Below are positions 54,415-55,953 of a stretch of 64,000 bases of DNA, one piece after another. The notes beneath the pieces are model-generated. The model saw only the letters and a list, made by a program, of their open reading frames with translations. It did not search any database and was not told the DNA's origin. This DNA comes from a virus: positions 43,395 through 107,394 of the IMG/VR virus record IMGVR_UViG_3300042865_000182, one strand, 5' to 3'. Every line of letters starts with the position of its first letter. Positions within the stretch are counted from its first letter, which is position 1. Position numbers and translations under genes: made by a program.

Positions 54415-54576
54415 TTATACATAAATTTTATCCCAGTGAAACTCTAATTCACCCTTTTCATTCATCTCAGTTACTACTATCTCTTCATTACGGAGATGTT
54501 CTGGTCTTGCACCACAAGTAACTTCTTCATTAGTCTTAAAGCTCAGAATAGTTTTGTTACCCTTACGGTACATGTA
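54415..54576 (-). CDS. Sak4-type ATPase, second exon
   Basis: Codes for 53 residues beginning YMYRKGNKTILSFKTNEE and ending EFHWDKIYV. The upstream frame (exon 1) stops after NADAIG, and Sak4/AAA_24-type proteins continue past that point with a sequence like this (GARPEHLRNEEIVV, then a late HWDK), so the two belong to one gene split by the intron at 54577-55392. Joined product: 240 residues. An isolated 61-residue gene here would have to start at a TTG or internal ATG, and is less likely. The UACAUGUAC repeat leaves the exact 3' splice site open to a shift of 6 bases. Confidence 0.8.
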   Translation of the reverse strand, partial: YMYRKGNKTILSFKTNEEVTCGARPEHLRNEEIVVTEMNEKGELEFHWDKIYV

Positions 54577-55392
54577 CATTATCTTCAAATTAATTTGCAA
54601 AATTAACCCCGTTTATTAAACTGCTTAACATTTCTGCTAAGATGAGACTATATCTTCTTCCTTGTTAGGAAGGCTTCCTTTTCCACTACCATTAGCTTGC
54701 AGTGTACTCCCCTTTGGGATAGTCGTTGAACCTTTTATAAATAAGTTTTCATATACTTGCTTTATCCAAAGGACCCATTCATCATATGAATAGTTCTTTT
54801 TAGCAAAATTACATTTTTGACAGCAAGGAACACAATTATTTAGCATATAACCAATATTATTGTCCTTTCTATCTATACCATTATATACAAACTCAGATGT
54901 ATCTTTAAATTTTCTTTTATGTCCTTTAAATGTATTTGCTGGAACAGCATTACAATAATGACAGTTTTGAACTACAAGTTCTTTAAATTCATCTAAATTA
55001 ATATCAAAAGTATAATTTCTAAGTAAAGCTTGCTTTTGGTAATTCATGTAAACTTGATAAAACATTGCTGTAAAAAGAGGTTTAGAACTTCTTTCAACTA
55101 TTTGTTCAATATTATAACAACCACAAGATTTACTTGCCCCAGATTTAACTGAATAACCAGTAACTTTTTTAATATTTCCACAATCACATTGGCAAATATA
55201 TCTTTTTGTAGATTTTTCCCAATGAAGCACTGTCCATCTATTAATTTTTGTTCCTGGTTCTAAACTTAATTTACTCATATTTACTTATTTATAACTTGGC
55301 TGCTGATTGTCTTCACCTTTCAGTGGTCAGAGTTCCCAGCAATTAAAAAGCTTTTTCAATCTATATTACTATAGAAAGTGGCTACTAATTTA
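54577..55392 (-). ncRNA. Group I intron (IA-like) in the Sak4-type gene
   Basis: 816 bases. The 5' exon ends ...GGT and the intron starts TAAATTAG; the internal guide GCCA (55379-55382) pairs with UGGU, leaving the conserved U-G wobble at the splice site, and the adjacent GUA can pair with the 3' exon UAC (P10). GCTGGGAACTC (55330-55340) and ACAATCAGCAGCCAAG form the P4-P6 region. TTATAAATAAG (55284-55294) and CTTATTTATAA (54735-54745) pair perfectly over 11 bp as P6, with the HNH ORF start in the loop. GTTCAACGACTAT (54718-54730) with ATAGTC (54646-54651) gives P7, and CTTCCT/AGGAAG gives P8, closely matching known group IA introns. The last intron base is G. The ORF extends through P7. Confidence 0.88.
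54637..55278 (-). CDS. Intron-encoded HNH homing endonuclease
   Basis: 213 residues. N-terminal CQCDCG and SCGCYN form a Cys-rich DNA-binding module; the HNH/zinc region is CHYCNAVP (about 104-111), NGIDRKDNNIGY, then NCVPCCQKCNFAK. Such enzymes cut intronless alleles so that the intron is copied into them. Here the C-terminal 40 residues (after IKGSTTIPKG) are read from the intron core itself, including P7, so the reading frame and the ribozyme overlap, as occurs in some phage introns. The ORF starts in the P6 loop. Confidence 0.85.
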   Translation of the reverse strand: MSKLSLEPGTKINRWTVLHWEKSTKRYICQCDCGNIKKVTGYSVKSGASKSCGCYNIEQIVERSSKPLFTAMFYQVYMNYQKQALLRNYTFDINLDEFKELVVQNCHYCNAVPANTFKGHKRKFKDTSEFVYNGIDRKDNNIGYMLNNCVPCCQKCNFAKKNYSYDEWVLWIKQVYENLFIKGSTTIPKGSTLQANGSGKGSLPNKEEDIVSS

Positions 55393-55953
55393 ACCAATAG
55401 CATCAGCATTAGCACAAATCAAAGACTTTATTTTACCAGTTAAGTCTATGTTAGCAGACATAACCATCTCACCCTTATCATCAACTACCTTGTCTTTAAT
55501 ATGACCAGATAAAATAATGTGGGGAGCTAAGGTATCAATAAAATCTAAAACTTGGAAGAATGCTTGACGGATATATAAATAACCAGCACCATTTGGTAGT
55601 GTAGTTACATTGTCTCCATCATAGTTCTTTCCCATCGGTGTCTGACGGTAAAGTTTTATTGCAAGAGGTTGTATCATATCCTCTAATGCAGTTACAGTAT
55701 CTACAGTAACATACTTATAAGGATTATCAGCTGCCTTGATAGCTTTACCAGCATCAAGCAACTCTTGCAAAGTATTAACTTTAATCTTTAGAGCTTCAAC
55801 ATAATCAGAACCACTCTCCAAATCTAGGATTAAATTGTCATCAAGACCAGCATATGCTGTTGTCTTACCAGTCTTAGGCTTGGAATAAATAATCATTCTC
55901 TTTGGATTCTGTCTTTCAGCCTTTACTTTTTTAGTTGGGAGTACTATACTCAT
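55393..55953 (-). CDS. Sak4-type RecA-like ATPase, first exon
   Basis: 187 codons from MSIVLPTKKVKAERQ to NADAIG, ending at the intron. Walker A is SKPKTGKT (24-31); Walker B is YKYVTVDTVTALEDM, and later ILSGHIKDK fits the sensor region. This is the AAA_24/Sak4 family of phage recombination ATPases, which stimulate single-strand annealing together with SSB; the SSB-like gene lies just downstream. The 240-residue spliced protein has the normal family length, whereas the unspliced frame would be truncated before the final strands. ATGA overlap with the preceding gene. Confidence 0.85.

Follow-up and report, generated by a model that had tools for sequence, protein, structure and literature searches.

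A probable mobile group IA intron, encoding a putative HNH homing endonuclease, in the sak4 gene of a crAss-like phage

Introduction

Why does the reading frame of a phage ATPase gene stop after 187 codons and resume, in its natural continuation, 816 nucleotides further on? The gene, sak4, belongs to a crAss-like phage, encodes a Sak4-type ATPase in 240 codons, and lies on the minus strand of the window (i.e., the whole stretch of 64,000 nucleotides analysed here), as do all the exon and intron elements described below (Table 1); the preliminary description of the locus did not give the strand. We consider it very likely that the interruption is a mobile group IA intron carrying an HNH homing endonuclease ORF. 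Comparison with related sequences revealed alleles with precisely empty sites, conservation and covariation in the ribozyme, an HNH frame that has stayed intact, as well as horizontal spread and short patches of conversion at the site. Introns of this kind are known; what is added here is allelic evidence of mobility, a map of five insertion sites in a single gene, and a measured dual-coding constraint.

Table 1. Coordinates of exons, predicted intron elements, and associated stretches in the window
Feature	Position	Strand	Details
sak4 exon 1	55953-55393	-	187 codons, ends ...NADAIG, last codon GGT; PF13479 AAA_24 E 3e-22, phrog_124 Sak4-like E 1e-23
Group IA intron (predicted self-splicing)	55392-54577, 816 nt	-	absent from near-identical alleles with exact exon joint; RF00028; site-excluded model R2
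Internal guide	55379..55385	-	GCCA forms P1 with exon UGGU (55393-55396); GUA forms P10 with exon 2 UAC (54574-54576)
P3 5' strand	55345..55351, partner 54673-54679	-	MFE fold of ORF-less core
P4-P5 hairpin	55301..55341	-	P4 UGCUGG/UCAGCA
P6a 5' strand	55284..55294, partner 54735-54745	-	11 bp, all perfect pairs
HNH / endonuclease VII-like ORF	54637..55278	-	213 aa plus stop; phrog_1035 endonuclease VII E 9.5e-19; phrog_374 HNH E 1e-10
Dual-coding stretch	54637..54745, 109 nt	-	HNH C-terminal codons within ribozyme core; synonymous changes suppressed
P7 5' strand	54719..54724, partner 54646-54651	-	GACUAU, partner AUAGUC
P7.1 hairpin	54708..54719	-	two-sided changes in 3/3 pairs
P7.2 hairpin	54684..54704	-	two-sided changes in 5/6 pairs
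P8 hairpin	54657..54672	-	CUUCC/GGAAG; two-sided changes in 4/5 pairs
P9 hairpin	54624..54641	-	holds HNH stop codon 54637-54639; two-sided changes in 5/7 pairs
sak4 exon 2	54576-54415	-	YMYRKGNKTILSFKT...; YMYRKGNK...IYV, stop included; runs on directly from exon 1 in about 70 homologues lacking the intron
Exon 2 patch, +1 to +21	54556..54576	-	unlike all nearest intronless alleles; probable co-conversion tract

The Host Gene and Its Empty Sites

The identification of the host gene as Sak4-type, made in the preliminary description, was borne out on the spliced protein, which scores 99.7 bits (E 4.4e-28) with the Sak4-like family phrog_124, against 85 bits for exon 1 alone, and which AAA_24 matches at E 8e-26. 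Its closest annotated relatives are almost all found in crAss-like phages. We regard the product as a Sak4-type ssDNA annealing ATPase, the annealing function being taken from the family name.

The preliminary description had also placed the continuation of the ATPase 816 nt beyond NADAIG and had proposed to look for homologous phages in which the gene is uninterrupted. The coordinates proved correct and such phages were found. Indeed, in about 70 intronless loci, the exon joint reads SLICANADAIG-YMYR, or departs from it by one or two substitutions, and the two exons meet in these alleles precisely where the splice was predicted, the insertion lying between codons 187 and 188. One of them, the L003/L154 contig, is near-identical to the window and lacks the intron; its Sak4 is 100% identical to the spliced window protein.

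These empty alleles bear directly on two other ways of reading the locus. The halves of sak4 could be two separate genes that flank a free-standing HNH gene and whose products act together without splicing; a TTG at 54600 could serve as start codon for the open frame of exon 2, and in the record of phage cr50_1 the halves are annotated as separate genes. The intronless alleles, however, form an unbroken gene in which the exons meet precisely where splicing is predicted to join them, which makes this arrangement extremely unlikely. An assembly artefact might be suspected in any metagenome contig, but the same intron stands at the same point in eight other contigs (independent assemblies), and sak4 of further contigs, like that of the deposited phage cr50_1, contains introns with the same core, so that an artefact is practically inconceivable. 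An intein, a split gene, and an assembly artefact were all rejected, since the intervening DNA contains stops and a ribozyme and since empty alleles exist.

A Ribozyme of Subgroup IA

The preliminary description had proposed a covariance search with the Rfam group I model, RF00028. This model matches both halves of the intron in the correct orientation (E 8.7e-5 and 0.0056 when 1.4 kb is searched), and the match is thus positive in kind; in strength, it reaches 28 bits in the 1.4-kb search and 46.8 bits (E 3.7e-12) on the whole record, against a gathering score of 50 bits, because the 0.6-kb ORF splits the model. An Rfam search at the gathering threshold consequently returned no match, this threshold being the curators' cutoff and not a biological feature. 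Another RF00028 match, a weak one (13.6 bits, E 0.03), lies outside the window in the same phage genome (G000:C1:40217-40369), where the R1 model has none.

Since the RF00028 score lies under the gathering score, we aligned the 3' core of 25 introns, taken from the insertion point of the window (hereafter site C), from other sak4 sites, and from other phages (AR9, HM1, phiNIT1, AR1086-1, Dulem virus 41, and cr53_1). Over P7, P7.1, P7.2, P8, and P9, 98.8% of the cells are paired and 17 of the 27 pairs show two-sided changes; in a control in which the partner strand was slid by 1-3 columns, 28-48% were paired and at most 5 pairs showed such changes. The pairing of P7 is invariant in this alignment, and covariation supports P7.1, P7.2, P8, and P9; for P3 and P4, the support comes from conservation and from folding the core with the ORF removed. 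A covariance model, R2, was then built only from introns located at other sites and in other phages, the site-C introns being left out. When run on the 64 kb, it found the window intron as its sole match (121.8 bits, E 2.8e-27). P7.1 and P7.2 are elements typical of group IA, and their presence places the intron in this subgroup; on these sequence grounds, it is predicted to be self-splicing. The group I reading put forward at the outset is upheld by the two models and by the exact intronless alleles.

The architecture was likewise correctly named in the preliminary description: P1 (UGGU/GCCA) with a U.G wobble at the 5' splice site, a P10 of 3 bp (UAC/GUA), the 11-bp P6 (our P6a), P7, P8, and the final G (54577) are all present. 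In the predicted reaction, P7 would bind the guanosine that attacks the 5' splice site, just after the U of UGGU, and the exons would be joined via P1 and P10, giving the normal 240-aa Sak4. In unspliced RNA, translation would instead end after 187 aa, at the in-frame stop UAA (TAA in the DNA) with which the intron begins. In most of the nearest intronless alleles (L004-L015), exon 1 ends with GGG, versus GGT in the intron-bearing ones (window 55393); as P1 needs the final U of exon 1, alleles with GGG may accommodate the intron poorly.

An Endonuclease ORF That Shares Bases with the Ribozyme

The ORF that splits the ribozyme model carries the invariant motif NG-DR...GY...NCV-CC--CN. It is intact and under purifying selection, and its family matches (Table 1) point to a putative homing endonuclease. 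A Pfam search of this ORF gave no HNH model or other domain at E <= 1, and AlphaFold2, run for this protein with nine sequences, gave a mean pLDDT of 47 and no usable model.

According to the preliminary description, the ORF starts in the P6 loop, runs through P7, and ends just before the 3' side of the intron. The first two points stand: the frame starts at 55278, just inside the P6 loop, and overlaps P6a, P6, P7, P7.1, P7.2, P3, P8, P7', and the 5' strand of P9. The last one was loosely put, as the stop codon lies in P9 (54639-54637) and 60 nt of intron remain before the 3' splice site.

That ribozyme and protein share bases, as had been suggested, is reflected in the way the overlap evolves. 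Among the site-C introns, the body of the HNH ORF shows up to 0.41 synonymous changes per site, with a dN/dS of about 0.1, and the tail that overlaps the ribozyme shows 0-2 synonymous and 0 amino-acid changes. We compared body and tail (Fisher test) at those codons in which the residue is unchanged and a synonymous alternative exists. The variable ones amount to 1/31 in the tail versus 27/160 in the body at site C (p 0.05), and to 1/23 versus 40/84 at another sak4 site, site A (p 7e-5). This suppression of synonymous change argues that the 109-nt overlap is held by the RNA, and the overlap between endonuclease and ribozyme core hence offers a measurable dual-coding constraint.

The same figures bear on whether the ribozyme could be dead, sak4 being then effectively split or broken. 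The score below the Rfam cutoff would fit such a state, but every core helix of the window intron is intact, R2 recognizes it with a high score, the codons overlapping the ribozyme barely vary synonymously, and exon 2 is still open and conserved. Loss of splicing is therefore highly unlikely, and we retain a functional group IA intron as the preferred reading.

Movement between Lineages

Does the intron move? Wherever the site-C pairs were measured, the introns are 93-99.6% alike and the exons 74-88%. The window and L083, for instance, share 98.7% of the intron versus 82 and 75% of the exons, and L086 and L089 share 99.6% of the intron versus 88 and 87% of the exons, each of the latter two having intronless relatives about 98% alike in the exons. 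The greater likeness of the introns compared with their flanking exons argues for horizontal movement between lineages.

The exons next to the intron carry a second trace. The window and L154 are 99.8% identical over 4.1 kb upstream, and six mismatches lie within 25 nt of the site (-12, +10, +12, +15, +18, and +21), when 0.2 would be expected from the surrounding rate. They delimit a 34-nt patch, beyond which no further mismatch occurs for over 500 nt. Of the five downstream mismatches, at least four (+10, +12, +15, and +18) are absent from every nearest intronless allele read (L003-L016), which suggests that the patch is a foreign piece in the window. At site A, patches are found on the other side of the insertion, at -17 to 0, in L254 compared with L096 (6 mismatches, 0.2 expected) and in L261 compared with L154 (7 mismatches, 0.7 expected). 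The patch is not universal, since none was found in the site-C pairs L086/L100 and L089/L106. Homing introns are known to co-convert the markers that flank them (review PMC3984707), and the patch of the window matches what homing with co-conversion would predict.

From these comparisons, we infer splicing, DNA cleavage, and the direction and mechanism of transfer, as follows. Translated from unspliced or excised RNA, the HNH protein would nick or cleave the intronless sak4 alleles of co-infecting relatives, and repair would copy the intron together with a short flanking stretch of exon. The sak4 alleles form a natural homing experiment, with near-identical phages with and without the intron, patches readable at nucleotide resolution, and guides that track exon changes.

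On the other hand, an intron that splices could be kept for interference and not for self-copying, its HNH protein acting mainly as a weapon that cuts the sak4 gene of intronless competitors in co-infection. Such a role is reported for the intron-encoded HNH of phage PhiPA3 against the RNA polymerase gene of PhiKZ (in the summary given in PMC11878797), and near-identical intronless phages do coexist with intron-bearing ones. However, the intron was transferred between lineages and left conversion patches, which implies that copying occurs; we consider it unlikely that interference is the main role, and the two roles are not exclusive. Homing thus remains our preferred account of the HNH ORF.

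Five Intron Sites in One Gene

All the fetched sak4 genes were split by tblastn and their joints read. This gave five group I sites, E, A, B, D, and C, with in-frame joints for every intron read in detail and with up to three introns per copy of the gene. Site E lies in the Walker A motif, between the codons of PK and SGK (L238 and L239); site A, between TP and MGK, is occupied in 18 contigs; site B, between GAG and YLY, in L085 and L276; site D, between KD and K, in cr50_1, L210, L084, L088, and L274-L276; and site C, between AIG and YMY, in the window and eight contigs. These counts are no measure of intron frequency, since three of the scans searched with endonucleases and those with Sak4 more readily pick up uninterrupted exons. 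In 15 of the 15 introns checked over the five sites, a U precedes the splice, P1 contains U.G, the last base is G, and the joint is in frame. At site A, the guide tracks the exon (GCCU/GGGC in L261, GUCU/GGAC in L269).

Several individual copies deserve mention. One sak4 gene (L085:363-3858) holds three group I introns, at sites A, B, and C, bearing HNH, GIY-YIG, and HNH ORFs, respectively. At site D, the same splice point is associated with unrelated endonucleases (L084:1762-2702, L093:3601-4605), i.e., GIY-YIG in metagenome contigs (L084, L088, and L274-L276) and HNH in cr50_1 and L210. The B intron of L085 (1720-1781) and the D intron of L084 (1900-1961) have 62 nt in common at 98% identity, a likeness suggesting that introns move or recombine within a single gene. 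Finally, a 254-nt insertion in the Walker A codons, between PKAG and KST (L240:2426-2679, also in L242 and L243), contains stops, is preceded by U, and ends with G. It folds strongly (z -4.8), has neither an Rfam match nor an IA signature, and it is a candidate ORF-less intron of another type.

Why would one gene be hit so often? It is conceivable, if quite improbable, that sak4 is a favoured landing gene because the Sak4 annealing protein would also repair the endonuclease cut, linking homing to the product of its host gene. Were this so, introns would be drawn to sak4 and would re-invade it at new sites, in keeping with the five group I sites, several of them occupied by related introns, and with up to three introns per copy; splicing could then also tune recombination during co-infection.

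Comparison with Known Systems

The preliminary description had considered a single-strand annealing gene to be an unusual host site. This view has to be abandoned, as four further sites in sak4 are occupied by group I introns in relatives and as introns in ATP_43b of Delta crAss-like phages had already been reported (Yutin et al. 2021, PMC7886860). In core genes of the Delta and Zeta groups of crAss-like phages, that paper describes group I introns carrying endonuclease ORFs, and it names ATP_43b, an AAA ATPase of the replication block, among the intron-bearing genes of the Delta group. Judging from the AAA domain, the gene order, and the position in the replication block, ATP_43b is probably the sak4 gene studied here. 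The two sets of introns share the phage order, the type of intron and ORF, and the location in core genes; they differ in that the earlier ones were found by their endonuclease domains, whereas five sites in one gene are resolved here, and the passages considered here give no splice sites, alleles, or conversion patches.

Outside this phage order, T4 td/I-TevI and other overlapping intron ORFs ("core creep", PMC3073962) offer the same layout, with an endonuclease ORF in the P6 loop running into P7. The overlap is 20 nt in T4 td/I-TevI and 81 nt at most in the table of Edgell et al. 2011 (PMC3073962), compared with 109 nt here, and the window intron further differs from these cases by the suppressed synonymous change in its overlap. 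Three group I introns in one gene, as in the sak4 of L085, are also known from another phage, Twort (Landthaler and Shub 1999, as cited in PMC11878797). Bacillus recA introns likewise have a recombination gene as host, although this gene encodes RecA and not a phage Sak4-type annealing ATPase (review PMC3984707).

Close counterparts in deposited phages are the introns of cr50_1 (sak4, site D) and cr53_1 (DNA polymerase), which have a homologous IA core (133 and 134 bits with R1) and related HNH proteins (36-39% identical). They differ by their insertion points, and both records annotate split genes and no intron. In cr50_1 (L093, NC_055868.1:3127-4878), sak4 is annotated as two genes flanking an HNH gene but is a single gene, interrupted at site D by a group I intron; intron-bearing sak4 of crAss-like phages can thus be misread as two genes. 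In cr53_1 (L094, NC_055889.1:3603-6415), the DNA polymerase is annotated as two genes around an HNH ORF and, given the shared IA core, this locus probably contains an unannotated intron.
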